Assembly: GCA_963575745.1 (NCBI GenBank)
Contig: CAUYUJ010021041.1
Coordinates: 5,001 to 69,000 of the forward strand
Origin: Prorocentrum cordatum
Taxonomy: Eukaryota; Sar; Dinophyceae; Prorocentrales; Prorocentraceae
Length of the DNA stretch: 64,000 bases
Direction of reading: 5' to 3'
The position numbers and the translations under genes are program-made. Below are positions 25,144 through 46,514 of the stretch, piece after piece (within the stretch, counting starts at the first letter, position 1; each line of letters opens with the position of its first letter). The notes beneath the pieces were generated by a model, which was given only the letters and a program-made list of their open reading frames with translations, was not told where the DNA came from and made no database searches.

Positions 25144-25176
<33 letters not shown>

Positions 25177-29024: not shown

Positions 29025-30076
29025 GGGGGGACTTGTTCATGAAGCGGTACTCGATCTCGGAGTTCCGCCTCAGCATCTCCCTGTCGGTCAGCTCGAAGCT
29101 GCAGGCAGGGAGTCGTGCAAGGCGCGGTCCAGGAAGATCGAGTGATAGTCCATCTCCGCTTCTGCATTCGCATCTCCGTCACAGGGTGTGTCCATGATGC
29201 TCTTCGTGTGTTTGCTGTCTAGCCCTTGGCACCGTTGAGAGCAGCCAGGACGCCGACATGATACATTGAGCATGAAGTTCTTGCGCATTGAGAAAAGAAC
29301 ATGCCGTGAACTTGTTCGCCAGTTCTGCTTATTGGTCTCCTCTATCCAATTCGCATGTGCTGTGAATCTGTACGTTGAGAGCTGCTGCCAATCTCCCAAG
29401 GACATGTTACCTAAGACGTTGGGGCGTCCTGGGCACGTTTTGGACGCGTGATGCCAGGATACCGTCACATCATCTGTCTTCTCCTGAGTCCGTGCCAAGT
29501 TGATTGTGAGTCTGCATCTCGCACACACCAAGGTCGTCGAACTCGCTGAGCTGAAAGGGGTCAGGAACAAATGGATGTTAGTGTCTGTCCGAGCTTCGAT
29601 ATTGTGGAACAATCTCTTCTCCTCCTTCCGCTTGTGAAAGTTTGGCAAACGCGCAAGGAGTTTCCGATCAGCGTCAGAGAAAGAGTCAGCATGAGTTGTT
29701 CGGAGAGCGTTGTGAAAGAGACGTGTCCTGTTCTGAGTCCGTGCCGTTCTCACGACTGAGGATCCGTCTTGAGCTGGAGGAGGTTGCTTGCCTCGTAGTC
29801 GCCGTTGTCGATCTTTGCGAAGATCCCCTTTCCACACAGGCGTAACTTGGCTTGCAGGAAACATGATCTGTGCCCATGGAGTAATTGTTGGTTTCTTGAC
29901 CTGCTCCACGGCAAGGTTGAAAAGGAAGGAGTTGACGGCGTCTGGTTGAAGAAGTCGGAGGCGTCCGTGGAATCCCGTCGAAATTTCTAGGCCGAGTGGA
30001 TACAGCTGGCGACATTCCTTGACTAGCTGGAACACGCTCTGACTGACTCTCTGACCTTTGTGATATGATTTCTGCT
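29025..30076 (-). mobile_element. LINE retrotransposon, 3' segment (beyond the DNA transposon)
   Basis: This is the downstream part of the LINE whose main body is 46515-55005. It starts at the TA shared with the DNA transposon and ends in CCCCCC next to the 17-bp duplication. 29025-29087 contains a frame ([20 protein letters not shown]) that I cannot assign; it may be 3' UTR or a small piece of captured gene. Confidence 0.75.
29088..30076 (-). pseudogene. LINE RNase H-ORF, C-terminal part
   Basis: The frame continues that at 46515-48667: across one TA the codons read CTC GGT AAG CAG, giving SRFGLG then KQKSYHKGQRVSQSVFQ. It contains a Cys/His cluster (TLVCARCRLTINL, then WHHASKTC) and a second one (MLNVSCRRPGCSQRCQG), candidates for zinc-binding tails. 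The frame ends at a TGA at 29090-29088. Family of the tail unknown. Confidence 0.65.
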
Positions 30077-30105
30077 TAATCCGATAGCCCTTATAACGGC
30101 GACGA
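30077..30105. repeat. Left terminal inverted repeat with TA
   Basis: Starts TAATCCGATAGCCCTTATAA and ends CGGCGACGA. It is the exact complement of 46486-46514 over 29 positions. Confidence 0.95.
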
Positions 30106-30114
30106 GGCGACGAT

Positions 30115-30178
30115 CGAAAGCAGTGCCCCGGCACTGCTTTGAACGCGTTCAAAGCAGTGCCCCGGCACTGCTTTGAAC
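30115..30178. repeat. Two terminal hairpins (AAAGCAGTGCC family), left end
   Basis: First palindrome AAAGCAGTGCC-CC-GGCACTGCTTT (30117-30140). Second has 15-bp arms GTTCAAAGCAGTGCC and GGCACTGCTTTGAAC around CC (30147-30178). They are joined by GAACGCGTTC, itself a palindrome. Probably subterminal transposase sites or hairpin-forming ends; role inferred. Confidence 0.9.
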
Positions 30179-30295
30179 GTATGATATGATGATATGATGA
30201 TGATTATGATTGATGATGATGATGATTTTTCCAGCGTACACTGTCCGCAACTGCGGCAATCAACATCATGCTCCACTTGCCCGCAACTGCGGCCA

Positions 30296-32281
30296 TCACC
30301 AACGCTGCGCCTCGAAGCTCCACGGAGGGCGCTCGGCAGGTCGCCCGCTCGAGCCCCACTCGACTTCACGCTGAGGAGGCGAGCCCTCAGGGGCATTGTC
30401 CGCAACTGCGGCATGATCAGAGGGCCACCACTGCGCGCCATCAGCGCCCCATTCGCTCGAGCTCCAGTCCCACCAGGACCAGCCCTGCCATCTCGTGGCG
30501 GGACTGCGCGCCTCCCATGCGCCGCTGCCGCTGGCGTCCCAGGACCCAGCCGCCACTGCGGCACAAGAAGGGGTCGCATCGTCGCCGTTGGCAGCTTGCG
30601 GCGGTGGCGTGTTCCCAGCTCGCTCAGCCCCAGCGTCTCTCCCCGCAACTGCGGTTCCCATCTGGGGTCGGACGCCCTTCCCCGCAACTGCGGTGTCCGC
30701 GTAGCTGCCCTTCTTGCCGCCCTTCTTGCCGCCCTTCCTGCCGCCCTTCCTGCGTTCCAACCTCGCGGCGAGTCTTTCAGGTGACCTGCGGCACGTATTG
30801 TGCGTGAAAGCCACCAGAGGGAAGTGCGCTCCGTGCCTCGCCCTGCCGAAGGCGCCATGCCATATCTTGTCGTCGAGGTTGCCCTGCTTCACTCTGAAGG
30901 GATAGCGCACCCAATCGTCGCGTTCCCTGCGCGCCATCCTTTGCTCGAACTCCGCATCTGCGGTCAAGGATTCGCCAGATGGCGTCAGGAAGGCGCGCAT
31001 CTTGTTTTCAACGGGCTCAGCCTTGGGCACGTAAGTCTGAAGCATCTTCCCAGGGCCATTCGTGTAGTCGAAGACAGGGAAAGACGGATCATGCTGGGTC
31101 GTCAAGAATCCGCCCTCACGGTCGTGCAGAACACTCAGGCCATGGTGAAGCTTGTACTGCCCAGGACAGTTTATGAACAAAATCGCCATGCTGTCTGCCC
31201 TGGGCTGGCCGCCTGCTGTCTTCCAGGGGGTCCACGCGGCGACGTCCACAGTCAGGCCGCAATTGCGGCACCAGGACACAAGCTGGAACATGCACATGTT
31301 GAAGTCCCCCATGCAGACCTTCACGTCCCATTCCCTGACGTAGGCGACGAACCAGTTGTAGAACTCATGGAGCTTCGTGACGCCCCAGTCTTGGTTGGCC
31401 AAGCTGTGGTGGACGTGCACCGCCATGACGTTGAAGGAGCCCCCCAAATGGGGCACGGCCTGGTCCAGGTGGACGCGCACCACCATCGCCCTGGAGTACT
31501 TGTTGTGCAGCTTTGGCGCAGGAGCCTCCGCAACTGCGGACTGTTTCTTCTTCTTCTTCGTTTTGGACTTCTCCTGCTTGTGGAAGAGTCTCGCAAAGTC
31601 TACGTGTTCAATGTGGCCGCCACTGCGGTCCCTCATGCCAACAAGGAGGGTCCCTGATGGCTCGCCGCCCTTAACGCACAGGTAGTTGTATTGAGTCCGA
31701 CTCCGAAACCTATCGTCCGCAACTGCGGCTGCACTGTCCCTCGCGTCGTGCTCCCCACTGAGTACCGCGCAGGTCTCGTCGTCGCACTCGCAGAGGGCGA
31801 TGATCTGGGCAGGGTTCGCGCGGAGCTGCGCCCACTCGTCCGCGCGTTGCGTGGGTCTAGCTGCAGTCCCTCCGAAGTTGGCCACGTAGAAGCCGACCCG
31901 TCCCGCTTCGAACTCCGTTTTCTCCTCCCATGCGTCGACAAGAGCTCTTTGTTTTTCCGACAGATTGCTTGTCTCGATGATGGGCACCCGTTTCCAGGTT
32001 CTCCGCGACGACAACACTCTCGGCATGTAGGAGTCATGTGCTGCCGCAACTGCGGCTCCCGCACCTCCCCGGGACTCAGCCTCGTCAGCGGAGGCAGCCG
32101 AGGACGCGACGGTGCTGTCGCCATCTTGCGTCCGCTGGTCGTCGTCATCATCCGCAACTGCGGCTTCCTCGTCTTTGCCTCCCTCCTCCTCCTCAGCGTT
32201 GTGGATGAACACCGTTCTGGCGAATCGAAATCCACGGTCCATACTCCCTGAGGATGCGCTCGGGCGCGCGGGCGGCCACAT
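30296..32281 (-). CDS. Endonuclease/exonuclease/phosphatase-like protein of the transposon
   Basis: About 661 codons from the ATG at 32281; the open frame extends upstream without an ATG. Residues 10-100 are acidic and Ala-rich. From about 100 it is globular: RKTWKRVPI-like basic start, AQIIALCECDD (the first EEP strand, with E in place), TLLVGMRD, FNVMAVHVHHSLANQ, and the catalytic-type strand DVKVCMGDFNMCMFQLV (GDFN). A GAHFPLVAFT segment sits where SDHFPL-type ends lie; the Asp is replaced by Ala, so catalysis is uncertain. The C-terminus is a Lys/Arg-Gly tract (RRKGGRKGGKKGGKKGSYAD) and a Trp/Ser-rich tail. Seven or more dodecamers fall in frame as Ala-Val-Ala. It is the last gene before the left end. 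DNA nicking or RNA cleavage are both possible. Confidence 0.6.
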   Translation of the reverse strand: MWPPARPSASSGSMDRGFRFARTVFIHNAEEEEGGKDEEAAVADDDDDQRTQDGDSTVASSAASADEAESRGGAGAAVAAAHDSYMPRVLSSRRTWKRVPIIETSNLSEKQRALVDAWEEKTEFEAGRVGFYVANFGGTAARPTQRADEWAQLRANPAQIIALCECDDETCAVLSGEHDARDSAAAVADDRFRSRTQYNYLCVKGGEPSGTLLVGMRDRSGGHIEHVDFARLFHKQEKSKTKKKKKQSAVAEAPAPKLHNKYSRAMVVRVHLDQAVPHLGGSFNVMAVHVHHSLANQDWGVTKLHEFYNWFVAYVREWDVKVCMGDFNMCMFQLVSWCRNCGLTVDVAAWTPWKTAGGQPRADSMAILFINCPGQYKLHHGLSVLHDREGGFLTTQHDPSFPVFDYTNGPGKMLQTYVPKAEPVENKMRAFLTPSGESLTADAEFEQRMARRERDDWVRYPFRVKQGNLDDKIWHGAFGRARHGAHFPLVAFTHNTCRRSPERLAARLERRKGGRKGGKKGGKKGSYADTAVAGKGVRPQMGTAVAGRDAGAERAGNTPPPQAANGDDATPSCAAVAAGSWDASGSGAWEARSPATRWQGWSWWDWSSSEWGADGAQWWPSDHAAVADNAPEGSPPQREVEWGSSGRPAERPPWSFEAQRW

Positions 32282-32608
32282 GCTTGCGTCTTCGCGTGCG
32301 CCACCTCGAGCCACGGTGGCTACGGAAATGGATCGTGAATGGGCATGGGGTCGGATGGAGGGAGGAGACAAAGAGGATTCGAGGAGTGGCAGAAGGAGGG
32401 CGAGGACTCAAAGGAACCGAAAGAACAACAAATGGACTGGCGGAGAAGCAGAAGGAGGGCGACGATTGCAAGGGACTGTGAAAGGATTATTTTCACAGCA
32501 GCAGGAAGACCGCAACTGCGGTTTTGCCTCATCTCCTGCCCGCGCGGGAGCCGCTTGGAAAAACAACTTCCCTCTGGACTTCCTGTGGGTCCGCAACTGC
32601 GGCCTGCA

Positions 32609-34504
32609 TCACGCTAGGGCTGGGATTACCAGCGCCATTTGCCCTCCCAGGGTTCTCACTGTTTCCGAATGCACGAACTGCGACAGCGCCGAACGGTTCC
32701 CAGACGCCGCGTCGTTCGCGACTTTTTGCAGCCACCCAGCAAACGTGAGCGGCCATTGCTCCTTGTGCTGCTTGCACATCTCCTCGTCCCAATGCGTCTT
32801 GAACCATGCCCACTCCCCCCTCTGCTCGTCTGAGAGGACGCCTTTTCCGCGAGCCAGGCGATCCAGAGCTGCCATCCTGTTTTTCTTGATCTTGAACTCC
32901 TCGGGATTCCACTGCGCTAGGGCGTGTTTGTTAGCCAAAGCCGTTTCCACCGCAACTGCGGCCTCCTTCTTTGCCCTCAAGGCGGCCTCGGCCTCTCGAA
33001 TCTGCTTCTTGAGATCGTGCAACGCCTTCGTCCTGTCGTTCGCTTCCAGAGCCAGGCGCCGCTTTTTCGCCACCACTGCGGCTTCGTGGTCTCGCTGGGC
33101 AGTCAACGCTCGTAGGACCTCGTTGTCCTCCCGCGCCAGCTCTCTCAACCGCTTCTTTTGTTTGTGTTGTTGCTGTCGGCAATCCTGCGCTAGTTTCTCC
33201 ATGCCCACTTGGCGCAGCATATCTTCCGCCTCGCGGAGCGTTTCTGCCAAGGACGTCGCCACTGCCACCTGCTCGGCCGCCTCTGCGTCGACCACGCAGT
33301 CCATGGATACCGAGGATCCTTGAGGCCCAGGTGCCGCAACTGCGGCATCGCACTGTTCCGCAAGAGCCTCGGCCCACGAGGCCTCCTCTTGCTCTTCGTC
33401 CTCCTCGTGCTCCTCGTGCACCTCCTCCTCCTCCTCCTCCCCGCCCTCCTCATCGCCCTCCTCGTGGCCTGGCTCCTGGCCTAGCGCTTCGTCGCCGAGC
33501 TTCTCCAACACGGAATCTGTGGCGTCGTGTTTCTCGTATTCGTGTATGAGACGCAGCACGTCATTGTAGGACCATTTCAAACGTTTCTGCTCGCATTCTT
33601 CCCTCACCTCCGCGACTGCGGTGTCCACTTTTGCTCGCAGCCCCCCTGCTTCCCAGAGTTCCGCCGCCTCTCGGCAAATCTCGAGATCTCCTGACTTGTC
33701 GAAGGGCGCTCGAATTCCCACTTTCAGGAAACCTTTCGCGGCGTCCAAGTGCAACTGCACATTCTCCAACACTGACAGCATCAAGTCGGCGCAATCGGAA
33801 CGCCGCAACTGCGGCACGTGCTTCCCCAACGCCATTTGCTGCACCAGCGCTTTGGTCTCGAGGGCAATGTACCGGCGCTTCACGTGCTGGTTCAAGTCCG
33901 TGTCCACGGGCTGCGCAACTGCGGTCGCCCCCCCGCCGTGAATGATCAGCACGTAGCCGCGCTGCCAGGCGAGTCTCCGCACAGCGTCTGCTTTGTGCGG
34001 GGAATGGTCGTCGGCCATGAGGATGCGCCACTTTCCCCGCAACTGCGGGTCGTCGGGCCAGGCCCGCAAGTGCCGCTGCAAGAATGATACAACGTCGTCT
34101 GCGCGGTAGGACCCCTTCTCGGACGTCGCCGTGCTCACCCAAGACGGATAGCCGCGACTGCGGGCATGTGCGGCCAAGCCCTCAGCGATGACAGATCCCC
34201 CCTTGAACATTAGCTCCGCCGGCGGTGGTCCGCAACTGCGGATGTCCTCCGCGTCGCTCGACACCGTCAGGTTCGCTGTCCACCGAGCCCTGCTGTCGTC
34301 ATGCGCCTCGACAAGCGGGACAATGCCACCCTTCACAGCCAAGGTCGGCTTCGAGGCCGACGACGACTCGTTGTGGTGAAAGGGCGACTGGTCCCAGTTC
34401 AGGATGTGCGGGTCGTACCCCAGAAGCTCCTCTGCAGCTGCGCGGACCCTGGCCACGTTCAAGATCATAGTCTCAAAACGAGATTGGAGCAACCATTTTG
34501 GCAC
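32609..34504 (-). CDS. DDE transposase, catalytic half
   Basis: 631 codons, probably entered from the preceding ORF by a frame change near 34530, because the frame upstream of the GTG at 34504 continues NRKYKVPKWLLQSRFETM. The RNase H-fold acidic residues are visible: HILNWDQSPFHHNES (first D), RILMADDHSPHKADAVRR (second D, the DNxxxH-like block), and TAVAQPVDTDLNQHVKRRY (third D in the QPxD block). This is the arrangement of the pogo/Tc1 DDE superfamily, which cuts and joins at TA sites. From about residue 300 a long coiled coil of Lys/Arg/Glu follows (acidic run EEGDEEGGEEEEEEVHEEHE, then heptad-like REAEAALRAKKEAAVAVETA), ending in an aromatic domain with RGEWAWFKTHWDEEMCKQH. The catalytic core looks intact. 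Confidence 0.75.
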   Translation of the reverse strand: MPKWLLQSRFETMILNVARVRAAAEELLGYDPHILNWDQSPFHHNESSSASKPTLAVKGGIVPLVEAHDDSRARWTANLTVSSDAEDIRSCGPPPAELMFKGGSVIAEGLAAHARSRGYPSWVSTATSEKGSYRADDVVSFLQRHLRAWPDDPQLRGKWRILMADDHSPHKADAVRRLAWQRGYVLIIHGGGATAVAQPVDTDLNQHVKRRYIALETKALVQQMALGKHVPQLRRSDCADLMLSVLENVQLHLDAAKGFLKVGIRAPFDKSGDLEICREAAELWEAGGLRAKVDTAVAEVREECEQKRLKWSYNDVLRLIHEYEKHDATDSVLEKLGDEALGQEPGHEEGDEEGGEEEEEEVHEEHEEDEEQEEASWAEALAEQCDAAVAAPGPQGSSVSMDCVVDAEAAEQVAVATSLAETLREAEDMLRQVGMEKLAQDCRQQQHKQKKRLRELAREDNEVLRALTAQRDHEAAVVAKKRRLALEANDRTKALHDLKKQIREAEAALRAKKEAAVAVETALANKHALAQWNPEEFKIKKNRMAALDRLARGKGVLSDEQRGEWAWFKTHWDEEMCKQHKEQWPLTFAGWLQKVANDAASGNRSALSQFVHSETVRTLGGQMALVIPALA

Positions 34505-34532
34505 CTTGTACTTGCGGTTCGGTTCTTCATGC

Positions 34533-36710
34533 TCAGGCCAGGAGCCACTTCACCACCATCAGCAACTGCGGGTCTTTCGGTTTGCCTCCCCGCTTCATTG
34601 TCTCCACGCAGTAGTCCGCGACGAGTTGCTTCGCCTTCGTAACCAGCAGGGATTGGGAGAACCTGGCCAACATCTTGGGCCTCTCCTCCGCAACTGCGGT
34701 TCGCTTGGCCACCGCCTTCCAGTCCACGGAGTACCTCATGTGGGACCACCACTCGTACAGAGCGGCTTCCAGCCATGGAGCCTTGTTCGGGCGCCCTTGG
34801 TTGCCCCGCGCGCGGCGTCGGCCATGCACGCCCGCCGTGCCATGTCCACCTTGTGTGCGCCAGTTTTGAAACCACTTGGAGACGGCCTGGCGCTGCTGGA
34901 CGACCCCCATGCCCTTCGGCCACGTGAACCGCTCGCAAAAAGACGCGATTGAATTCCGTGGCAGAACGCCCTCGCCCATCCAACCACAACTGCGTGCGTG
35001 CGCCTCCAGGTCTTTGCAAACCAGTTCGCGGTCTCTGAGCATGTGCGGGCACACGCGCCGCTTCTGTTCCGCAACTTCGGGTTTTGGGCGTGCGCTGGCC
35101 AGTGCGTGCGCCCTGATCTGCTCCTCCTGCAACGCCTCGGGCATAGCCTCAGCCATGGCAAGCAATATACCCATGTCCTGCACGCCCGTCTGCCACTCTA
35201 ACGCCGCCATGAGAGCGGGGCGTGGCGCGCTCGCCTCTCTCGGCGCCTCTGCTGGTTCGCCCTCGCCCTCGGAGTCGTGCAGGACCATGGGTCCAGCAGG
35301 GCCGCTGGCCCCGCAACTGCGGTACGCCCGCACCTCCTCCAAGGTTAGTTCCTGCGTGACAACGAGCATGTCGTGCAACCACGGTTCGTCCCAGCGGCGC
35401 ACCCCGAAATCGTACAGTTCCTCCCGAAGCCATTTGCGCGTCTCGGCATTTTGCGGTTTCTGCAACATCATCGCCATAAGGTCAATGCCGCAGTTTCCAT
35501 CGCAAACAGTCCCTAGGACCCATTGTCCCAGAGGACCGTAGAACCTGTTCAACGCGTCCGCCCCCTCAGAGCACACGCCACCCACCGCAACTGCGGCCAC
35601 CCAGTGGCGCACCTCATGGAGAGGGTTCTCGGGAGTCACGGGCCTGAGTTCCACCGTTGTCCATTCCCCGAACAGATCCTCAGCAGCGGCGAGTACGCAC
35701 GCCACGCCGTCGACGGCGCATGGCTCAGTGCACTTCTCCTTTGCCCAAGGCATGTAGAAGTCAAGGAGGTCCTTGCGGTTCTCGCCTTCCCACACGTAAG
35801 GTTGACGCCCGAACCGCAAGGCAAACAGCATGAAAGCTGAATACCCTATGTAGGAATTCTCGGACAGAATCTGCCTCAGGAGAGCCATCACGCGGTCAGG
35901 CACCGTCGCCGCCACTGCGGCCTGGATCTTTGGCGCGTCTTCCACAGGTACACCTTTCTCTGGCGCCAGGGGTGGCGCCGCGACTCGTGGCCGCAAGGCG
36001 TCGCCAACAGGCGCCGCAACTCGTGCTGCAGCCTTTGGGTCTGGGCACGGGAAGAATGCGACCTGCGTCTTCGACCAGTTCTCTGGCAGCGGCCGCGCTG
36101 GTGGCAAGCGTGCTGGAAGTGGTGTGTCTTTGTCCGCTTCCACTCCCTCAGGAGCTTCAACCGCAATTGCGGTCTCCTGCGCAGCAGGCGGGTCTGGTGT
36201 TGCGTGCACTTGAGCTGGAGGAGCTGGAGGGACTGCTGCTGCGGGTGCTTCGGGCACAGGGGCTGCTGGAGGTTTGGGTTCTGCGGGTGCTTCTGGTGCT
36301 GGAGCTGCGTGTCCTTCTTGCGCAGGAGCTGCGAGTTCTGCTGGTGTTGCTGGTGCTATGTGTGCAGGGGCCGAGGGAGCCGCAACTGCGGTGCCGCCTG
36401 GAGCCGCAACTGCGGGTGGTGGCGTCGCGCCCGGTCGCCAAGCAGACGGCCGCAAATGAAAGCGAGGCGGCTCAGCAAGGCCGTACTGCGACGCGGGCCA
36501 CTTCGCTAGGCACGGAAAATCCGCACATGCGTGCACCTTTATCTTCTTGGGGCACGGAACGCCGCTACTGCGGCTCAAGATGTTGGCGAGCCCAGTGGTG
36601 CCATACTTCGTTTTCCTCGGTGCGCAGCCGCTGTCGTAATGGAGCCACTCCACCTCGAAATGCGTTCCGTCCTCCTCGCCATACCATGTCCGCCCCACGG
36701 GAACATCCAT
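34533..36710 (-). CDS. DDE transposase, N-terminal DNA-binding half
   Basis: 725 codons from an ATG at 36710. Residues 1-80 form a Cys-containing domain (TWYGEEDGTHFEVEWLHYDS, then VHACADFPCLAKW). Residues 90-270 are an Ala/Pro/Glu linker. Residues 270-420 are globular with VCDGNCGIDLMAMML, which resembles the catalytic-Cys loop of OTU-type cysteine proteases (DGNC), though no matching His was found. Residues 560-725 carry CERFTWPKG, KWFQNWRTQGG and SLLVTKAKQLVADYCVE, a CENP-B/Tc5-like helix-turn-helix pattern normally just before the DDE domain. The frame ends KWLLA-stop at 34533, and the next ORF begins one register over 28 bp later, so the two probably make one protein of about 1360 residues. 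Confidence 0.65.
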   Translation of the reverse strand: MDVPVGRTWYGEEDGTHFEVEWLHYDSGCAPRKTKYGTTGLANILSRSSGVPCPKKIKVHACADFPCLAKWPASQYGLAEPPRFHLRPSAWRPGATPPPAVAAPGGTAVAAPSAPAHIAPATPAELAAPAQEGHAAPAPEAPAEPKPPAAPVPEAPAAAVPPAPPAQVHATPDPPAAQETAIAVEAPEGVEADKDTPLPARLPPARPLPENWSKTQVAFFPCPDPKAAARVAAPVGDALRPRVAAPPLAPEKGVPVEDAPKIQAAVAATVPDRVMALLRQILSENSYIGYSAFMLFALRFGRQPYVWEGENRKDLLDFYMPWAKEKCTEPCAVDGVACVLAAAEDLFGEWTTVELRPVTPENPLHEVRHWVAAVAVGGVCSEGADALNRFYGPLGQWVLGTVCDGNCGIDLMAMMLQKPQNAETRKWLREELYDFGVRRWDEPWLHDMLVVTQELTLEEVRAYRSCGASGPAGPMVLHDSEGEGEPAEAPREASAPRPALMAALEWQTGVQDMGILLAMAEAMPEALQEEQIRAHALASARPKPEVAEQKRRVCPHMLRDRELVCKDLEAHARSCGWMGEGVLPRNSIASFCERFTWPKGMGVVQQRQAVSKWFQNWRTQGGHGTAGVHGRRRARGNQGRPNKAPWLEAALYEWWSHMRYSVDWKAVAKRTAVAEERPKMLARFSQSLLVTKAKQLVADYCVETMKRGGKPKDPQLLMVVKWLLA

Positions 36711-37085
36711 GAGCGGTCGCGTGGCGAACGACTCGGGCCGGGCACTCGGCTGCGGGCTACAGAACTAGGAAGAGGGAGGGGAGGAGGGAGGAGCAACTGA
36801 AGACGATGCGGAGGGGCGAAGAAGGAGGTACATTTCAACAACGCCCGCGCGGAAGCCCCAATCATCGCGCGCACAGGGTTTCGATGCTTCACTCCATGCT
36901 TCTCTAAGAAAAACGCTCGCCCACACAAGTTGGCGCACTAAGGCGTGCACCCGTGGAACACCCTAAACCTTCCGCCTGCCTCCTCACACCGCCTCGCCCT
37001 CCGCGTGTTCACGCGCACCCAGCCACCCCGCAACTGCGGGCACTCAGTAGCCCCACCGCAACTGCGGCCCATACGGCTTCGGGCC

Positions 37086-38084
37086 TCAGTCGAACAGACT
37101 GGGGATTTGGAGCTCGAGGTAATCCAGAGCCGCTTGCTTGCGCTGGTGCTGCGTCATGCCCTCCCACTCGTAGTCGTAGCCCTTCACCGACTGCGCCGAC
37201 TGCCACTTCTTCTTTGTAAGTTTCTTCACATCCATCTCGATCCTTTTGCCCTTGTTGGCACACTCTCGCGTGATGGTCGCGACCCAAGCGCCCTTGAAGT
37301 CCCAAACGACGGTGAAGCCAGAGCCGCTCCCCTGCGCCACGGGGGAGTCGACCTCCTTTTGCTTCGCCAGCGGGGTGGCAGGGTCAACCGCCGTTGCCCA
37401 GTCCCTGTCCGCCACTGCGGCCTCGTCCTTGTCGCCGTCGTCGATGTCGGGGACACCGCCGAGGCTCACGTCGTCCACGATCATGTCGATCAGCCACCCA
37501 AGGTCTGCAGCGTCCAGCCACAACGTCCTCCGCTTGAAGCTGGCCACCCGCACGTTTCGAACGGCCGTGTCGTGCGGAAACTTCATGGGGCTCTTTGCGG
37601 GCATCTGTACGGAGTGCACAGTGGCTATGGCCGACTCCACGGCCTCGCCCCTGGGCAGGCCAGTAGTCGCCGCACGCGTTCCAGTCTTCTGCTTCTTGGC
37701 GCTGGTCGGGGTCGCTGCCTGCTTCTTCGTGGCGTCCGTGGAGCTGACCAGGGCCGACATGGGGTCATCTGCTTCGTCCCCCGCGTCGCCGTCGCTCTCC
37801 TCGTCCGCAACTGCGGCGCCGCCCTGCTTCGCGAGTTCTTTCTTCAGCGCGTCCCAGGCCTTGGAGGCCTTCAAGGCCCCTGCGGTCGGTTTACCTTTGG
37901 CGCACACCTTGAGCAGCCAAGCCTTTTGCATGTTCACGTGCACGAAGCTTATCTCTCCGAGGGGCCCTGCGTGGAGCACCTTGACATCCTTTTCGGGGAT
38001 GGGGGTGGTCTGCGCAAGCCAACCTCCACGGATGCACAAGACCTTCTCAACGCACACAGGGCTCCATTCGCTCGAAGTCGGCAT
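37086..38084 (-). CDS. Transposon cargo protein of unknown family, 332 aa
   Basis: I start at the ATG at 38084 (MPTSSEWSPVCVEKVLCIRG); the open frame continues upstream only through the palindrome at 38233-38343 and a GGCCTCCAGG repeat, giving a collagen-like leader that I regard as noncoding. Globular segments: WLAQTTPIPEKDVKVLHAG, EISFVHVNMQKAWLLKVC, then a Lys/Thr-rich linker, then VRNVRVASFKRRTLWLDAAD, GWLIDMIVDDVSLGGVPDID, and a final VVWDFKGAWVATITRE with GYDYEWEGMTQHQRKQAALD. No motif I can name. Three dodecamers are in frame. Confidence 0.6.
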   Translation of the reverse strand: MPTSSEWSPVCVEKVLCIRGGWLAQTTPIPEKDVKVLHAGPLGEISFVHVNMQKAWLLKVCAKGKPTAGALKASKAWDALKKELAKQGGAAVADEESDGDAGDEADDPMSALVSSTDATKKQAATPTSAKKQKTGTRAATTGLPRGEAVESAIATVHSVQMPAKSPMKFPHDTAVRNVRVASFKRRTLWLDAADLGWLIDMIVDDVSLGGVPDIDDGDKDEAAVADRDWATAVDPATPLAKQKEVDSPVAQGSGSGFTVVWDFKGAWVATITRECANKGKRIEMDVKKLTKKKWQSAQSVKGYDYEWEGMTQHQRKQAALDYLELQIPSLFD

Positions 38085-38232
38085 GTGTGCTACTGCGCTG
38101 GACACAGCCGCAACTGCGGGCAAGGCGGAGGTGCGGGCAGTGGGGCCGCGCGCGGTTGAGCCAGATGGCGAGACGAACGCCTCCCTGGAGGGCCTCCCTC
38201 GGTCCCTGCGATCCTCGCGCCTCCCTGGAGGG

Positions 38233-38343
38233 CCTCCGCCCTCAGAATGCTTCAAAGCAGTGCCGGGGCACTGCTTTGAAGCACCTGGGTGCTTCAAAGC
38301 AGTGCCGCGGCACTGCTTTGAAGCATTCTGAGGGCGGAGGCCC
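38233..38343. repeat. 111-bp palindrome in the middle of the transposon
   Basis: Outer arms CCTCCGCCCTCAGAATGCTTC and its complement enclose two hairpins with 16-bp arms GCTTCAAAGCAGTGCC / GGCACTGCTTTGAAGC (38249-38282, centre GG; 38291-38324, centre GC). The hairpin family is the same as at both ends of the element. 38340-38510 beyond it is a degenerate GGCCTCCAGG repeat. Confidence 0.9.
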
Positions 38344-38814
38344 TCCAGGGCCTCCGCCCTCAGCCCAGGGCCCTCCAGGCCCTCCAGGGCCTCCAGGGAG
38401 GCCCTCCAGGGCCTCCAGGGCCTCCAGGGAGGCCCTCCAGGGCCTCCAGGGCCCTCCAGGCCCTCCAGGGCGGAGGCCCTCCAGGGCCTCCAGGGAGGGA
38501 GGGAGGGAGTGAGGAAATGAGTAGTTTCGGCTTCCAACTTGGGAGGAAGGGGAGAAAGGAGGAGGAGAGAGGGAGGAAGTGGAGGAAGGGCGAGGGAGGA
38601 GAGGGAGAAGGGAGGGAGGAGGTCCGTTTCGAACCTCCGTGCTCGATCGTCAGCGGTCCGCTACTGCGGCATCAGCTAACAGAAGCAGTGACACTGCAAA
38701 CTACACGAGCGCTCCGCAACAGCGGTCACGCGTGCGCCCCCCCCTTCGGCCTGTTGCCCGCAACTGCGGTCACGCGAGCAAGCCGCCCTGACTGCCGCCA
38801 CTGCGGCTTCTTAA

Positions 38815-41241
38815 TTAGAGCGACATCTTCCCGCTTTCGTCGAACCCTTTCTTCGATTTCTTCGGCGCGGGCTGGCCCGAAGGCTTCCCTTTGGCCCTCT
38901 TGGCCGCGTCCGTCTTCCACGTCTCCTCGGCCGCCTTCTTCTTCGGTGCGGTTTTGGGTCTCGCCTCCCACAGGAGCTCTTCTCCTTTCTTCACGGCCGT
39001 GGTATTCACCAGCACAGGGACATTCACGGCGAGCACGACCCCGCCTGTCCCAGGCACGCACACCGCCAATTCTTTCGTCTCCAGCTCCATGTTGATGCGC
39101 GCAACTGCGCTTTCATTACGGCTGTTTCTCTGCTGGATCTCCTGTTCCGTGACTCTGTTGACTGCCCAGAAGACGTGCATTGTCTCTTGCGCATCCCACT
39201 TCCATGCTCTCAACCGCACATCGTGGTCAGCCACGTCGGCGGGCGTCTTGTCCGCAGGCGGCTTGAACTCGGGGTGCAAGTAGAAGGTCGTGGGCGTGGC
39301 CCCATTTGGATCTCCTTTCACCCAGACTTGCACGGCCACCCTCTCGGGGTGCGTGCTTGCGGCGTGCACCTTGGATGCCTTTGGGACGCACGGCCACAAC
39401 TCGATGCATTTTTCGTCGTTTGCAGCGGTTGCCTTGACGGTGCGTTTCTCTGTGTCAGCGTCTTGCAACACCTCTACTTGCGCTTCCGCAACTGCGGACA
39501 TGTGGCGCGCCCAAAGGCACAGCAACACTGCGCTGACCAAAGCAGGCTCCCGCCCCAGCTCCTTCGCTGCCGCTGAACGCCTCCATTCGGCGATTGGCAA
39601 AGGGAAGGATCCGCGTGGAATGGCCGTCGTGTCCCTGCTGCGCTGGTGGTTCGTTGGTAATTGCGTCGTGGGGTCAAAGGAAATGACCGTCGGCATCAAC
39701 TCGTGCCCCTCTGCGGAAGCCTTTGTCTTCCCCGCCACTGCGGGCTCATTCGGTTCTGGGCGCGGCAACGCGTTGAAATCGAACCAATCGGGCTTCCCGC
39801 CTCCGACTCCCACTTCGCCGAGGGCCTTCTCAAGGGCGTCCCGATTGGACTTCGGCTCCACCTTCCCCGTGGCCTCCGCGCAAGCGCGGAGGAGCGCCTG
39901 ACGATGTCCTGGGATACTTCGTTCCTTGACGTGGGTGTCCTTCAGGTACTGCATGAAGCCGTCTGCGGTCAGTATGCACAGGTTCGCCTTGAACTCGATC
40001 GCCTTCTCAGGGCCCATGCCGTCGATGGCCTTGCTCAGCGTGAACAAGTACAAACGGAGAGCCGAGTTCATGTCGATGAGGAAGTCTCGGAACTCCTTCT
40101 TCTTCCACGATTGTTCTGGGTCAGGGCACCACACAGGAGTGTCAACGCCCCTCTTCCTCGCAGGCGCGTTCCTGTAGCATCGCATCACCACGGCAACCTT
40201 GACCCACGGCACTTCGTCGGGAAGCTCGCTGGCTGCCCCGAAGGCACCGAGCCGAAGGGCCCTTCTCCTGGAGTTCACGTAGACCTCGCAGAACTGGAGC
40301 AGCAAGGGGATGAACTGCGCTTTCGTGCTCCCGAGCCCAACAACGAACGAGAACAGCTCAATGAAGTCTGGGTCCTGAACGACTCGATCGAGTTCGTGCA
40401 TGACGGAGAGCTTGACCTTGTCAAAGGCAACCTGATCCGCAACTGCGGCGTGCAGCTCCGCGTCAACAGCCTTGCACAGAACACGGAGCGCGGTGAGTTC
40501 AGTCGTTCGCAACGCAAAATCGGCTCCTTTATTGAGGGACTGGCTGATGAGCGAAGCACCAGTGGGTTCCTCGTCCATGATTTTCCAGCTAAGCACTTCC
40601 ATGAGCATACCCCCCTGCACGAGTTTCTTAGCGACAGGGTCATGTTCCGCCACTGCGGCCATGTCGAGATTGCCGTCCTTATCGAGCACGCGCTTCAGCC
40701 TCGCGCTCTCGTCCTCCGTGAACTCCATGCCTTGGGGGATGGGCCACTTGGCTCCCAGGGCGCACGCCCGCAACACGAGGCACAAGTGGGAGTGCGAACA
40801 CGTCCCATACGCAACGTCTGTTCCGCAACTGCGGTCGAAGCACGCAGCGAGGTGGCCGGTCGCTTTTTCCAGATTGTACTCTGTGTACGTCTGGAACTTC
40901 GGGTCCTCCTTTTTTCTCAGCACCAGCTCTTGTGCTGGGTACATCTGAACGCAGACACCTTCGTGGTCAGCTTCGGCTTGCGTGAATCCAGCCAGGAAGA
41001 TTTTCACAGCGAGTTCCCGAACCCTTTCCTGCTGAGGGTAGTGCCCGCCTCGGTTGCCCGTGTGCGGGGCGAGCATGAGCACAGGGAGGCGCACCTTGTC
41101 CCCTGTCCTGAATCTAGACCTCAAGGCGTTGGCCCTCTGAAAGATCCCTTGCGTTCCGCCTGGAACTGCGGCTGTCTCGTCCGCCACTGCGGCTTTCTTG
41201 TCCGCCACTGCGGCATTATCTGTGCCGACGCTGTCGTTCAT
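38815..41241 (-). CDS. Transposon cargo protein of unknown family, 808 aa
   Basis: Start chosen at the ATG 41241 (MNDSVGTDNAAVADKK). The first 25 residues are encoded by three tandem-like dodecamer units (AAVAD repeated). The body is globular and uninterrupted: KVRLPVLMLAPHTGNRGGHY, VRELAVKIFLAGFTQAEADH, VLRACALGAKWPIPQGMEF, AELHAAVADQVAFDKVKLSV, YTEYNLEKATGHLAACFDRS, VKVAVVMRCYRNAPARKRGV and a Lys-rich C-terminus (TAPKKKAAEETWKTDAAKRA). GTCSHSHLCLVLR has a Cys/His cluster that may bind metal. I recognise no enzyme family. Seven or more dodecamers are in frame without disrupting it. Confidence 0.65.
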   Translation of the reverse strand: MNDSVGTDNAAVADKKAAVADETAAVPGGTQGIFQRANALRSRFRTGDKVRLPVLMLAPHTGNRGGHYPQQERVRELAVKIFLAGFTQAEADHEGVCVQMYPAQELVLRKKEDPKFQTYTEYNLEKATGHLAACFDRSCGTDVAYGTCSHSHLCLVLRACALGAKWPIPQGMEFTEDESARLKRVLDKDGNLDMAAVAEHDPVAKKLVQGGMLMEVLSWKIMDEEPTGASLISQSLNKGADFALRTTELTALRVLCKAVDAELHAAVADQVAFDKVKLSVMHELDRVVQDPDFIELFSFVVGLGSTKAQFIPLLLQFCEVYVNSRRRALRLGAFGAASELPDEVPWVKVAVVMRCYRNAPARKRGVDTPVWCPDPEQSWKKKEFRDFLIDMNSALRLYLFTLSKAIDGMGPEKAIEFKANLCILTADGFMQYLKDTHVKERSIPGHRQALLRACAEATGKVEPKSNRDALEKALGEVGVGGGKPDWFDFNALPRPEPNEPAVAGKTKASAEGHELMPTVISFDPTTQLPTNHQRSRDTTAIPRGSFPLPIAEWRRSAAAKELGREPALVSAVLLCLWARHMSAVAEAQVEVLQDADTEKRTVKATAANDEKCIELWPCVPKASKVHAASTHPERVAVQVWVKGDPNGATPTTFYLHPEFKPPADKTPADVADHDVRLRAWKWDAQETMHVFWAVNRVTEQEIQQRNSRNESAVARINMELETKELAVCVPGTGGVVLAVNVPVLVNTTAVKKGEELLWEARPKTAPKKKAAEETWKTDAAKRAKGKPSGQPAPKKSKKGFDESGKMSL

Positions 41242-41389
41242 ATCTGTGCCGACGCTGTCCGCCACTGCGGCCCGGAGCTCCGATATGGCGGACTATGGCA
41301 CGACGTCCGTCGCTCAGGGTGGAGGCGTGTGTGCCAGGAGCCCAACGACCTGCTGAGCCGAATGCCTGCGGACGACTGAAGGCTCAGTT

Positions 41390-41735
41390 TTAATCCAAAA
41401 TATCGGGCGAGAGCTTGGGGGGGGCGCAGGCTGGAGGAGGGAGGGGGGTGCAAGCTGGAGGAGGACGAGGAGGGGAAGGGGAAGGAGAGCTAGGACGGAG
41501 GTGGCGGGGGGATGCGGCCTGGAGGAGGACGAGGAGGGAGGAGGGAGGAGGGAGGAGGGAGGAGGGAGGAGGGAGGAGGGAGGAGGGACGACGACGACGA
41601 CGACTGCTGACGACAGACGACAGACTTGACGACGACGACGACCGACGACGACTGCTGACGACAGACGACAGACGCGACGACGACGACGGCAGCGACGACG
41701 ACGAGGACGGACGACGACGATGATGATGACCCAGC
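41390..41735. repeat. (GGA)n and (GAC)n microsatellites in the transposon
   Basis: 41520-41590 is a GGAGGGA array; 41590-41735 is a GACGACGAC tract containing a doubled unit with TGCTGACGACAGACGACAGA. This spacer has no ORF of its own. Confidence 0.9.
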
Positions 41736-41953
41736 GCGCGCACACTTAATTATTGCAAACTGCGGCTTCGCAACCGCGTGCTCTCCTATTATACGCAACC
41801 GCAACTGCGGCTTCGCAACCGCAACCCCGCAACTGCGGGCTATCCTACACCGCAACATGCACTCCATCGCTAATGGGATGCACTACGCAGGCAGCAGGCG
41901 CCCAGTAGTACCGAGTTCTGTTCCGCAACTGCGGCTCCTCGGTCTTGCCGCAC

Positions 41954-43780
41954 TCACCGCTCGTCCGCAACTGCGGCAGATCGCGCCTCTTCGTGCTTCC
42001 GCTTGCTCGCCCGACTCTGGCGTCCGTGGCCGACGAAGACGACGTTTTGGTGGATGCCCTCGCACCAGTGCGTGCTGAAGGTCTTCTCGTTGAGCTCCTT
42101 CTGAATGACCTTGCCGATTGGGGGCAGCGCTGCCAAGCCGAGCTTTCTTCTGACTCCGCTACTGCGGTCAGGGTCATCCTCCCACTTGGGCATGTACTTC
42201 GCTGGGACCCAGCGCCGAGAGATGATGGAGTCGCTTGTTCGATGCATCCAATCAGGGAGCCACTGGGGATCGTTCTTCGACGGCCTCCCTGCATAATCCG
42301 CGTTGTAGTCCGCAATGCGCACGTCGCACGGGCCAATGGGGAGGACGTAATTCGGATGCAGGACGCGTGTGCCCTCCACAAGGCCTCCGAACAGGGCGGG
42401 TCCAGCCCTGAGCACCACCCCCATCGGGCAGGTGTAGCTGGCTCCGCAACTGCGGCCAAATGCTTGGAGCTGCTCAGGCGGGATGTCAAACAGGCCGCAC
42501 AAGAACCGCACATCATTTTTATGGATGGAAGCAACCGCGTCCTTGAAGAAACTTGGATGCCACGCTGTTTGTTCTGATTGCGTGATCTTCTGTTGGAGAC
42601 GTTCGGTGACTGCGTGTCTGGACACGACGGCAAAACGGATCACCGCGGCAGGATTCATGTCGGAGCCCTTCAGGCGAAAGCGCAGGATCGTGACGGCGTG
42701 GGTGGCCCCAACAACATGACCCGCAACTGCGGTCTCTGCGATGATGTGCGGGCGCACGAGCACCACGCCCGTGTCTCTGAACAGGCCAACCGTCGTCCAG
42801 TAAGGCTCCGCGGTGTTGTTTTTCAAAGTGACAGCGTCTTCGACGGCAGTCCTGAGTCCAACGGGAACGTCGTAGCTGCAAGCGCCTTCGACGTTCCCCG
42901 TGCGGAACAGCTCGGGGTCCCATACGACGAAGACGACCGCCGCAGTTTGGTGCAAGATGCACCTGAAGACATCTTCCTTTGTTGCCACCTTCGTGATGAC
43001 CACCACGTTGAACACCAAAGCGATGGTGGACGGAACCCGATTGCCGTCTGCTGTACGAAGGAATCCTTCGTTCCACTTGGGGCGTTCCCCAACGTAGTTT
43101 ATCCCTGGAGGGGACCTGGTCCGCTGCTTCTTCCGCGGTGCTCCCGCATCTTCCCGCAACTGCGGTTCCGACGGAGGCCCCGCGCGACCCCGCGACTGCG
43201 GTTCTGACAGCGGCGAGCCTTCCGTGGGAGGCGGCCTTTTCCTCGGCCGCGAATCGGCCGAGGCGATTGTCTCGGCGGCTTTCTCCTGGGAGGCGGCCTC
43301 GTCTTCGGGTTGGGCGCCTCGTTTGGACTCGGCTGCGAGCAGCACGGCCGAGGGCGCGCTGCTCCCAGATGAGCCGCGCGCGGCACCTGGCTCGCCGGCC
43401 ACCCCCGCAACTGCGGTCTCGGTGGCGGCTCCCGTCACTGCTGGTTGGTCCTGCTGCTTCGTCGGCGTCTGCGCCCGAGGCCCCCATTTTGCCTTGGGGG
43501 TCAAGTGCGCCCTGCGCAACTGCGCCTCTTCGCGCCTCCCACCAGCAGAGCTCCCACTCGCAGCGCTTATCGGCGGCGGCGGCCGATATTCCCGCGAGGA
43601 GCTAGACGACTGCGGGGAGGCCTCGCGCGGCGGTCGCTCGGGGCTTCCGCAACTGCGGTCCTCCGTCGGCTCCGCGACTGCGGCATCCGCGGCAGCCCCT
43701 TGCAGGCCGAACCTTTCCCGCAGTTGCTGCTTCAGCTCGGCGAACCGCTTGTCGACCTCGGCTTTGCGACCTGGGTCCAT
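41954..43780 (-). CDS. Transposon cargo protein of unknown family, 608 aa
   Basis: ATG at 43780 (MDPGRKAEVDKRFAELKQQL). Residues 1-210 are Ser/Ala/Pro-rich and disordered, with basic patches. From about 215 it is globular: GINYVGERPKWNEGF, STIALVFNVVVITKVATKED, TAAVVFVVWDPELFRTGNVE, PYWTTVGLFRDTGVVLVRPH, AVTILRFRLKGSDMNPAAVI, FLCGLFDIPPEQLQAFGRSC, then VLPIGPCDVRIADYNADYAG. The alternating beta-strand pattern suggests a single large domain, but I cannot place it. It ends AAVADER with a dodecamer overlapping the terminus. Confidence 0.6.
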   Translation of the reverse strand: MDPGRKAEVDKRFAELKQQLRERFGLQGAAADAAVAEPTEDRSCGSPERPPREASPQSSSSSREYRPPPPISAASGSSAGGRREEAQLRRAHLTPKAKWGPRAQTPTKQQDQPAVTGAATETAVAGVAGEPGAARGSSGSSAPSAVLLAAESKRGAQPEDEAASQEKAAETIASADSRPRKRPPPTEGSPLSEPQSRGRAGPPSEPQLREDAGAPRKKQRTRSPPGINYVGERPKWNEGFLRTADGNRVPSTIALVFNVVVITKVATKEDVFRCILHQTAAVVFVVWDPELFRTGNVEGACSYDVPVGLRTAVEDAVTLKNNTAEPYWTTVGLFRDTGVVLVRPHIIAETAVAGHVVGATHAVTILRFRLKGSDMNPAAVIRFAVVSRHAVTERLQQKITQSEQTAWHPSFFKDAVASIHKNDVRFLCGLFDIPPEQLQAFGRSCGASYTCPMGVVLRAGPALFGGLVEGTRVLHPNYVLPIGPCDVRIADYNADYAGRPSKNDPQWLPDWMHRTSDSIISRRWVPAKYMPKWEDDPDRSSGVRRKLGLAALPPIGKVIQKELNEKTFSTHWCEGIHQNVVFVGHGRQSRASKRKHEEARSAAVADER

Positions 43781-43784
43781 GGCG

Positions 43785-44200
43785 TGGCCGCGCGCGGCCC
43801 CCGTCCGACGGGGGAACTGCGGCCGGCTTGGGAGAGGAAGGACAACGAGGGAGACGGCGGGGATGAGGACGAGGAAGGCGAAGAGGAGGATGGAGAGGAC
43901 GCGACGGAAGAGGATGGCGCGAAGAGCTCAGACGAGGGTGAAAGGAGCAAGGGGACTGCGACGAGGATGACGGGGCAGAAACGGAGGAGGAGGAATCAAC
44001 AAAGTCCGCAACTGCGGCCCTCGGGGGGGACTGCGACGAGGACGACGGGAAATGACTCGGCCAACGGAGGCGGGCTACGGCCAACGGAAGGAACTTCGAC
44101 GAGGAGGAAAGGCGGAGGGAGGAGACTGCGACGAGGACGACGGGGAAGGGGCGACGAGGACGACGAACAACTGCGGATCCATCTGTTTAAGTACCTGTCT
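43785..44200. other. Spacer of GAC/GAG-rich repeats
   Basis: Contains several copies of GACTGCGACGAGGACGACGG between dodecamers at 44006 and 44204. Open frames here are acidic or Arg-rich by composition. Confidence 0.5.
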
Positions 44201-44445
44201 CCGCAACTGCGGCCGCGCTAATTAACGTCACGAGTGCTTCAACGGAGGTGATGCGCGCCCGAAGCACCTAATTACAGCGGTCAGTCGTGGGAGCGCCGCA
44301 ACTGCGGCAAAGCTGTATGAAGTCGCTAGAAGGCAGCGCCGCAACTGCGGCCGAAAGCGCGCATAGTGAGTCAAACGAGCGCGGCGTCACGCGATCGGTC
44401 CCCGCAACTGCGGTTCCATGGCTGCGCAATCCCGCAACTGCGGGG

Positions 44446-45195
44446 TCAAGGCTGCGCGGACCACCGCGGTTGCAGCTGCGCCCCCTTGCTCGCGTCGAAC
44501 CGCCCAGGATTCGGATGGGCGTGCAGCATCTTCCAGAACGTGAAAGTTCCGTGGCCATCGCTCTTGCCGAGACCTGCCCTCGGGCCCCGCACGGGATGCG
44601 AGTGCGGCTCCACCTCATACGTGTTGAACTTCGGGCTAGACCAGGATGGGTGGACGCGAATGCCCGAGCCGTCGTCGCGGATGAGGACGAAATCCCACTG
44701 GGGCAGAGGGATTCTTTGCGCCTGTCCTCTGTCACCCCTTTCGTGTGCCTCATGTTGTCGAGACTGCTAGGGCACGGGCGGCACTCGCAGCGGACCAACC
44801 CGCGACTGCGGTCATTGTCAGGGCCGCACACGACGCGCAGCATTGTAGGTCCATCCATCTGCGCGACCCTCTCCAGCCAAGACCACGGCACTTTGACAGT
44901 GTGGTCCCAGTCCCAATCCCTGTTGTCCTGCGCCTTCCCCTTTGCGCGGTACTTAAGGATCTTCGAAATTTCCTCCGCAACTGCGGTACCTCCGAAGACG
45001 GGCGTGCGGCTGCCGAAAGGGTTTTCTCGGTCTTTGTACTCGTCTCGGAACCACTTCAAGGCCGCGTTGTGCTGCTTATAATTGCCGTTCCAGTTCGCCC
45101 TGAAGTTCTCGAAGAATTCCAACTTGAAAATTGGCAGCGGCTCATTGCGCACAATTTGAAACAGCGCAACTGCGCCTTGTTCTTCGCGCCCTGGG
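44446..45195 (-). CDS. Transposon cargo protein of unknown family, frameshifted
   Basis: The globular part starts near 45195: GAVALFQIVRNEPLPIFKLE, FFENFRANWNGNYKQHNAAL, KWFRDEYKDRENPFGSRTPV, KVPWSWLERVAQMDGPTMLR, VVCGPDNDRSRGLVRCECRP. After RHTKG the sense frame shifts by one at an AAAGGGG run near 44738, then reads RGQAQRIPLPQWDFVLIRDD, GSGIRVHPSWSSPKFNTYEV, EPHSHPVRGPRAGLGKSDGH, TFTFWKMLHAHPNPGRFDAS to a TGA at 44448-44446. Upstream (to 45813) there is a Gly/Arg/Trp-rich leader (SGGYGGGGDRSGGWGGG) in a third frame that may be its disordered N-terminus. VRCECRPC could be a metal site. No family named. It is the first gene after the right end. Confidence 0.5.
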
Positions 45196-45954
45196 GAAGC
45201 AGGGGACCGCCTCCTTTGCCCGCCGCTGTTGCGGCCGCGGGCTCCGCGGCAGGAGAACCTGCCGAGGCACTCGAGCGGCCACCTTCCCATGCATTCCACC
45301 AGCCACCCTCGTCGTCCCACCAGCGGGCGCCCTCCATTCCCCAACCCTCGCATCCGTTGCCGCCCATCCGCCGCCCTCCCATCCGCGACTGCGGTCACTT
45401 CCGTCGCCGCCATCCTGCGCTTTTCCTCTCCATCCGCCAAGAGAATCTCCGCCGCCCCAGCCGCCACTGCGGTCACCTCCGCCGCCGTATCCGCCACTGC
45501 GGCCGCCCCAACCCCCACTTGTTCCCCAACCGCCGCCGCTGCTCTTGGAAGAATCCGCAACTGCGGCCCGTGTTTCCTCTTCCGCTTTGTCATCCCACCC
45601 TGCACGCATCTCTGCCCCGACTGCAGGCCGCGGAGGCGGGCGCGAGCCCGCCCAACCGCCGTGAAACCTACCGTCTGCGCGGGCTTGAGCCGAACGTGCA
45701 TGGAGGAGGAGGATGAGGAGGAGGAGGGTGAATGTGAGGAGGATGATGCGTTCCTGGGAGGTGTGCCTTCGCGTGCAACACAAGAGCCCTGAGAATTCCT
45801 GGGGCCCCTCCAACAGCCAAGGACGCGGATGACAAGAAAGTCGAGAAGATTGGGAACCGATTGAGGATTAAGAGGCGCGCGACGAAAGGGATGATGATGA
45901 CGAAGAGGAAGATCAGTGAAGGGGAGGAGCGGACAGGAATTATGGAGGAGTGAT

Positions 45955-46275
45955 AGCAGAGGAGGAAGAGGGGGAAGGGGGAGGAGGAGGAGGAGGAGGA
46001 GGGAGAGGAAAAGGGGGAGGAGGAGGAGGAGGAAGAAGGTGAGGAGGAGGAGGAGGAGGAGGAGGAGGAGGAGGAGGAAGAGGAGGAGGAGGAGGAGGAG
46101 GAGGAGGAAGAGGAGGAGGACGACGACGACGAGGAGGAGGAGGAGGAGGAGAGGGAGAAGGAGAACGGGGACAGGAGGACAAGGACGGAGAAATATAACA
46201 AATGAGGGGGAGGAGGCGGAGGAGGAGGAGGACGAGGAGGAGAAGCAGGAAGAGGAGGAGGAGAGGGGGGAGGAA
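45955..46275. repeat. (GGA)n microsatellite near right end of the transposon
   Basis: More than 250 bp of GGA/GAA triplets, longest in the window. Confidence 0.95.
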
Positions 46276-46412
46276 GAGGGCGCGTGAGACTGGGAGAACG
46301 AGGTAATTAATTAGAGAGGGAACGGGGGAGGAGGGAGGACAAGGAAGAGCATACAGCGACGAGAAGAGGAGAAGGAACAGACGAAGGCTCCTGCTGATCG
46401 CATTTCCGCATC

Positions 46413-46480: not shown

Positions 46481-46485
46481 TTCCA

Positions 46486-46514
46486 TCGTCGCCGTTATAA
46501 GGGCTATCGGATTA
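46486..46514. repeat. Right terminal inverted repeat with TA
   Basis: Ends AAGGGCTATCGGATTA; complementary to 30077-30105 at all 29 positions. Confidence 0.95.

Follow-up and report, generated by a model that had tools for sequence, protein, structure and literature searches.

A window of 64,000 nucleotides from the dinoflagellate Prorocentrum cordatum (contig CAUYUJ010021041.1, positions 5,001 to 69,000) was analysed for a repeated dodecamer, CCGCNACTGCGG, which is scattered through a 16,434-bp transposon at 30079-46512. Comparison of its copies within and between element families shows a word under selection, with the form of a stem-loop of specific sequence, that is dispersed along the transposon in the sense orientation. 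We consider it probable, if not strongly so, that this word is an RNA-level, sequence-specific hairpin tag on transposon transcripts, bound by a putative protein; the protein, the transcription and the function are what we infer from the patterns described below.

An oriented dodecamer confined to a transposon

Exactly 67 matches to the dodecamer were found in the 64 kb, all 67 on the plus strand and all within 30079-46512 (first and last at 30245 and 45566, mean spacing 232 bp). No exact copy was found on the opposite strand of the window. One hundred dinucleotide shuffles contained a mean of 0.08 copies and a maximum of 1. These figures bear out the first-pass annotation, in which about 67 copies had been counted, one approximately every 230 bp, in a single orientation, confined to a transposon and with a chance expectation well under 0.1. 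On the plus strand the variable base N is A in 46 copies, C in 12, G in 6 and T in 3. Copies with one mismatch are few, with 9 on the plus strand (8 inside the element) and 5 on the minus strand (4 inside). A word that had merely spread, with its copies then decaying, would leave many near-misses. Their scarcity therefore suggests that the word is kept under selection, in agreement with the earlier view of a selected rather than accidental sequence.

Confinement was also seen at 30 other element ends with 30 different flanks, where 150 motifs were present in 45,810 bases inside the elements and none in 44,307 bases outside. The equal density in flanking DNA that had been named as grounds for rejecting the idea was thus absent. 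The direction of the motif relative to the element ends is constant across these 30 ends. The motif is absent from the terminal inverted repeats (TIRs) and its copies are spread through the element interior, which makes a transposase-binding site at the ends, one of the roles first suggested, unlikely. Evenness of spacing was significant in a second element family (P 0.0004), with P values of 0.069 in the window and 0.16 in a third family. No other oriented 8-mer stands out in both the window and the second family, save purine-rich simple repeats.

Across the 4.13-Gb genome the motif occurs 33,633 times (17,588+16,045) compared with 5,964 (2,958+3,006) for the reversed pattern, these totals covering element copies and all other DNA together. 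Isolated copies exist elsewhere in the genome, outside the places examined for confinement. One further locus (L174 on contig C3, 2718-6285) is a long inverted repeat of 95% identity in which three motifs are spread over one arm and the centre, while the other arm has two. It has no BLAST similarity to the transposon beyond simple repeats and is possibly another carrier of the word. Scans of other collections for paired motifs matched at least 118 GTDB stretches and 43 viral contigs. However, a tblastn search of these 161 loci with 17 element or homologue proteins gave nothing at E 1e-4, suggesting that the GTDB and viral matches are chance occurrences or unrelated repeats. Scans of viral contigs for proteins related to the transposase or to P0005, a gene of the element, gave no match.

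Conservation of the dodecamer between element families

The second family is represented by a 17.0-kb element on contig C15 with related TIRs and the same gene order; its left TIR has one genomic match within 3 mismatches. The third family has 37 TIR ends, and 10 kb of one copy was compared. In all three the motif is oriented with the coding strand (67/67 in the window, 42/42 in the second family, 29/29 in the 10 kb of the third). Between the window and the second family (70.6% DNA identity), 11/18 sites keep all 11 fixed bases, compared with 3.0% of background windows. The corresponding values are 17/23 against 8.3% for the window and the third family (76.2% identity), and 2/4 against 1.5% for the second and third families. 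The N base was unchanged at 3/11, 13/17 and 2/2 of these kept sites, respectively. As far as can be judged from the alignments, the same word has been retained in an element superfamily whose proteins have drifted apart to identities of about 35-45%.

Very recent copies offer few differences from which purifying selection could be judged. Fixed motif columns were variable at 1/77 and 2/44 positions, compared with 34/1443 and 91/1479 elsewhere; in eight copies of the P0005 region, which again differ little, 0/198 motif columns were variable against 40 of all 4346 columns. A copy with 97.5% identity shares 27/28 sites where about 86% would be expected, a comparison that also rests on few differences.

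The motif had been suggested to be a self-spreading unit inserted four codons at a time. As the main route this is ruled out, since aligned sites differ mostly by substitution; of two closely related copies, one has a site that the other lacks, and this site falls in an indel. The first-pass annotation had also held that its proposal would fail if the codons were ancestral conserved residues. Many sites are indeed shared between families, as that objection supposes, but what is shared is a nucleotide word in any frame with N free.

The nucleotide word and the peptides it encodes

Homology-supported reading frames contain 51 of the 67 copies (3.97/kb) and spacers the other 16 (6.15/kb), so that the motif occurs in both genes and spacers as had been noted. 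The genic copies are read as Ala-Val-Ala (35), Arg-Ser-x-Gly (RSxG, 11) or Pro-Gln-x-Arg (PQxR, 5), and the earlier statement that Ala-Val-Ala predominates is thus correct. T at N, which had been said to occur only where no stop codon arises, was found at 36562, 38658 and 42156. Two of these copies are in the RSxG frame and one is in a spacer, with none in the stop-making frame. Ala-Val-Ala is coded as GCA-GTN-GCG in 39/42 cases in the window genes and in 18/23 in matched parts of the second family.

Peptides of each of the three frames are also enriched in homologous proteins, of which 188 were compared. In 98 homologues (11 of P0005 and 87 of P0002, not counting the entry of the window itself and two gene models of the host), [SPTA]AVA[VADEG] occurs 322 times compared with 6.5 in shuffles and is present in 94/98 proteins, RSxG occurs 143 times compared with 4.3 (67/98) and PQxR 49 times compared with 1.9 (36/98). 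Among 90 further homologues, the new ones among the best 120 of 214 matches, the counts are 626 against 10.7 (90/90), 159 against 5.1 (76/90) and 28 against 2.6 (22/90). All of these counts show presence and not independent events, given that sites are shared by descent, that candidates were found by shared words and that the proteins come without DNA. The control [VADEG]AVA[SPTA] is raised too (78 against 5.9 and 48 against 12.4), partly as an alanine-flanked AVA fits both patterns. The tag peptides occupy 217 distinct columns in an alignment of 162 proteins.

These data bear on the proposal that selection acts on the protein, with Ala-Val-Ala linkers as useful spacers and the DNA word incidental, which we find scarcely credible. 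The 35 genic copies read as Ala-Val-Ala, some of them in variable linkers, would fit. However, it would leave aside the 16 spacer copies, the 16 in other frames and the near-exclusive use of one synonymous form, and RSxG and PQxR are enriched in homologues too. As the selected unit, or as a full account, the Ala-Val-Ala linker is refuted by the spacer and off-frame copies. It is the 12-mer and not the peptide that is kept, to judge from these alignments; the word stands in spacers and, within genes, in every coding frame. Selection on a 12-nt nucleic-acid word runs through the transposon genes and shapes their proteins, and many AVA, RSxG and PQxR residues appear to owe their presence to the word. 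Conserved residues in such proteins may serve the nucleic acid and not the protein, which is a warning for their interpretation.

Covariation in the stem

Read on the minus strand, which is the coding strand, the 67 copies (30245-45566) have the form CCGC-AGTN-GCGG, that is a 4-bp stem closed by a loop which as RNA would be AGUN. The 16/16 spacer copies in the window are also oriented with the coding strand, where no reading frame forces it. Over CGC-AGTN-GCG cores in the three families, the outer pair is C-G in 138 cases, G-C in 14, U-A in 2, U-G in 2 and mismatched in 6. Two-sided changes of the outer pair number 3 (expected 0.17), 8 (1.66) and 5 (1.18) in the three families (P 7e-5, 2e-7 and 3e-4). 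In three hairpins of the window, all on the minus strand, the outer pair is swapped with pairing kept, giving GCGC-AGTT-GCGC (45164-45175, 43514-43525 and 39099-39110). The last of these is in the P0005 gene, and the aligned second-family site is the same variant. When any one stem pair was allowed to vary with the AGT loop fixed, 17/18 two-sided changes were Watson-Crick, or 15/16 (P 2e-6) when the variant shared by descent was counted once. At homologous sites of the window and the second family, C-G has changed to U-A in pairs 1 and 4, and to U-G at two sites. One-sided stem changes comprise 10 sense G-U, 3 antisense-type and 9 broken pairs (10 vs 3, P 0.008-0.06 depending on the background). 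The second family also shows a preference for a fifth pair (27 vs 19.3, P 0.004). Owing to this covariation, a strand-specific RNA hairpin is the best supported of the four options offered in the first-pass annotation. Other stems on the same loop are rare in the window (4 vs 67), which suggests that a reader of the hairpin needs sequence too.

Paired changes could also arise by mutation. Quasi-palindrome correction is a process that could yield paired two-sided changes of the arms, and replication over an imperfect short palindrome might copy one arm onto the other in a DNA word that is kept for other reasons. Such an origin would likewise yield the two-sided changes seen here. Nevertheless we consider it improbable, since arms of 4 bp are short for copying of this kind and the excess of sense over antisense wobble pairs is not predicted. 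A hairpin in single-stranded DNA of one strand, read in excision, repair or replication, is less probable again and, in our view, very unlikely. Covariation and strand bias would fit a folded single strand of DNA as well as RNA, but the sites extend over the whole element and are not near its ends, and we know of no long single-stranded stage in a cut-and-paste mariner-type element.

A more serious competitor, if still a rather unlikely one, is a DNA-level self-tag, in which an element or host protein would bind the double-stranded word along the element, for example against silencing, as VANC does on the VANDAL transposons of Arabidopsis. Dense motifs in the same orientation bound by an anti-silencing protein are described there (PMC5735166), and such a reader would suit the nearly fixed primary sequence of the inner arms and AGT, the rarity of other stems on this loop and the two CpG steps in each motif copy. 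By contrast, independent half-sites should give one-sided changes more often than two-sided ones, but the arms change together, with pairing kept in 17/18 two-sided cases. The likeness to VANC targets consists of a short motif in many copies of one orientation, confined to an element family and thought to benefit the element. However, the published accounts (PMC5735166, PMC10398659) describe those motifs as mainly non-coding, arranged in tandem repeats, rapidly diverging, family-specific and read as DNA. The dodecamer is mostly genic (51/67), is not tandem as a rule, is the same word in three families and covaries in its stem. Neighbouring motif copies share little beyond the word itself, and a single site is linked to an indel, so the tandem-repeat feature of VANC targets is lacking.

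A possible tag on transposon transcripts

The reading that we favour is that the dodecamer acts in the transcript, as an S-CGC-AGUN-GCG-S' stem-loop with a GC stem of 4 bp (sometimes 5 bp) and an AGUN tetraloop. A putative RNA-binding protein would read the AGUN loop on its CGC/GCG stem. Many copies would be needed if binding were by avidity along a long mRNA, and the effect might be that GC-rich element transcripts are better exported, stabilised or translated, or that they are marked as self. In its full form, the proposal is that a transposon of the cut-and-paste kind labels its transcripts by means of a structural code in the RNA, dispersed over genes and spacers as approximately 40-70 near-identical AGUN hairpins in any tolerated frame. 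An RNA-binding protein dedicated to these hairpins, belonging to the element or the host, would read them cooperatively; the mRNAs would then count as self, and would be exported, translated or left alone by RNA surveillance. We regard this fuller version as plausible but somewhat short of probable. If the RNA reading is true, this would be a transposon with a transcript-wide structural self-tag and, given the unusual gene expression of dinoflagellates, a handle on the export, translation and silencing of mobile-element mRNA in this group.

Several observations weigh against an RNA hairpin. The inner stem pairs hardly vary, such that pairing rests mainly on the outer pair, and plain mismatches make up 9/22 of the one-sided stem changes. 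For a fifth pair the window gives no clear preference (18 vs 13.0, P 0.061). With native flanks the hairpin was not predicted more often than with shuffled flanks, sense folding being 0.32 vs 0.41 (P 0.08) and 0.43 vs 0.46 (P 0.72). In homologous proteins, paired classes numbered 807 against at most 798 in shuffles, an excess that could be caused by mixing tag and non-tag tripeptides and that a control tripeptide showed alike; the G-C outer-pair variant was found at 0/18 in the Ala-Val-Ala frame of these proteins. The supported genes all lie on one strand, so that orientation to the genes is indistinguishable from orientation within the element. Finally, the 5′ end is free of motifs over 946 and 1,633 bp in two families and over only 332 bp in the third.

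Comparison with known systems

Plant En/Spm elements carry subterminal TnpA motifs near their ends and in both orientations, and RNA viruses carry dispersed packaging signals which are degenerate and serve capsids. Both resemble the dodecamer in being short recognition sites that recur within a single genome, mobile or viral. Unlike in the viral case, no capsid gene was recognised in the transposon. The yeast RNase III Rnt1p recognises AGNN/G2 tetraloop hairpins and needs the first five base pairs for cleavage (PMC4334505). Its substrates share with the dodecamer a tetraloop starting A-G on a short paired stem, there read by an RNA-binding protein. The dodecamer differs from them in having a stem of 4 bp as a rule and of fixed sequence, a third loop base that is also nearly fixed, and dozens of copies in each element. 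The 10-nt RNA element CAR-E (PMC4488659), which promotes the export of mRNAs that naturally lack introns, is likewise a short cis-acting RNA word in coding-type transcripts without introns. However, its description there mentions no hairpin, and CAR-E belongs to human host genes and not to a transposon. The cyanobacterial HIP1 is also a highly iterated short word at high density; as described (PMC4390886), it is a perfect palindrome found over whole genomes and linked to DNA methyltransferases, whereas the NACT core of the dodecamer is asymmetric, 67/67 copies are on one strand and none occur in 44 kb of flanks. On the features tested none of the compared systems fits. No description of it was found in the accessible part of the open-licence PMC literature.

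Structure and gene content of the transposon

The transposon (30079-46512, supported genes on the minus strand) is bounded by 27-bp TIRs at 30079-30105 (+) and 46486-46512 (-) and by a TA target-site duplication at 30077-30078 and 46513-46514; TA is also present at 29/30 other element ends. TIR ends with ≤3 mismatches number 252+249 in the 4.13-Gb genome, with none for a reversed control. The TIRs, the TA duplication and these approximately 500 ends confirm that the carrier is a transposon, as had been proposed. In silico excision of the element with one TA restores a continuous LINE-like (long interspersed nuclear element) reading frame across the junction, with RNase H in frame. Over the P0005 region, eight genomic copies have 99.4-99.9% identity to the window, and the P0005 gene has an open 825-aa frame in 59/59 scored genomic copies (of 1,498 candidates), which together indicate a recent burst of the element.

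The gene order is P0007, P0006, P0005, P0004, P0003+P0002 and P0001, all on the minus strand. The P0007 frame (44271-45701) has relatives in the second and third families with 47-59% identity over matched parts, and tryptophan-rich short peptide repeats were observed in its third-family relatives. The other two families each have a relative of P0006 (41957-43780), the identities being 35 and 52%. Besides its own database entry and two gene models of the host, P0005 (38818-41265) matches 11 homologues of 32-79% identity. Its predicted structure (mean predicted local distance difference test, pLDDT, 61) gave no PDB match at E≤0.001; a SET-like fold, hinted at with E 0.17, was not relied on. The start of P0004 (37089-38099) was set by homology. 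P0001 (30299-32371) has a relative in the second family and by eye looks like an endonuclease/exonuclease/phosphatase (EEP) nuclease. P0003 likewise looks, by eye, like an OTU protease with a DNA-binding domain. A Pfam search gave no EEP match for P0001 and no OTU or DNA-binding match for P0003.

P0003 and P0002 together (32612-36710, with 87 homologues of P0002) are, judging from a predicted model, the transposase, interrupted in the window copy between two frames. By-eye comparison with a homologue suggests that a stretch between the frames is missing (32612-36710, minus strand). The predicted model of the homologue P0081 matches the mariner transposase Mos1 (E 5.5e-4), one of two matches at E≤0.001, both with low TM-scores, and agrees with the TA duplication. 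Against Pfam the transposase matched DDE_1 only at E 0.058. From the TA duplication, the TIRs and the predicted mariner-type transposase, the carrier is classed as a Tc1/mariner-like, cut-and-paste element.

Perfect or near-perfect palindromes around CAGTGCC/GGCACTG are found at both ends and in the middle of the transposon, approximately 8.15 kb apart. They comprise two 34-bp units at the left (30112-30179), a middle set in the spacer that separates P0005 from P0004 (38249-38324) and a right subterminal set (46412-46487). Palindromes occur at like positions in the second family, including a similar one at the place corresponding to the middle set.

Insertion site and neighbouring features

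The transposon sits inside a LINE-like retroelement on the minus strand (29091-30078 and 46515-55405), with RNase H and weak reverse transcriptase and endonuclease matches. A protein kinase domain lies at the far end of the 51689-55405 frame, adjoining the retroelement. The database model P0023 of P. cordatum, named casein kinase I, appears by eye to join kinase, LINE and transposon pieces as exons, and holds pieces recognised by eye in P0005 and P0008 of the window. A weak match to the Pif1 2B domain at 24534-25709 (+), which at E 1e-4 falls short of the Pfam cut-off, may be what is left of a helicase from another mobile element. Downstream of the transposon, a tyrosine recombinase (Phage_integrase, E 6.7e-9) is encoded at 61247-62662 (+).

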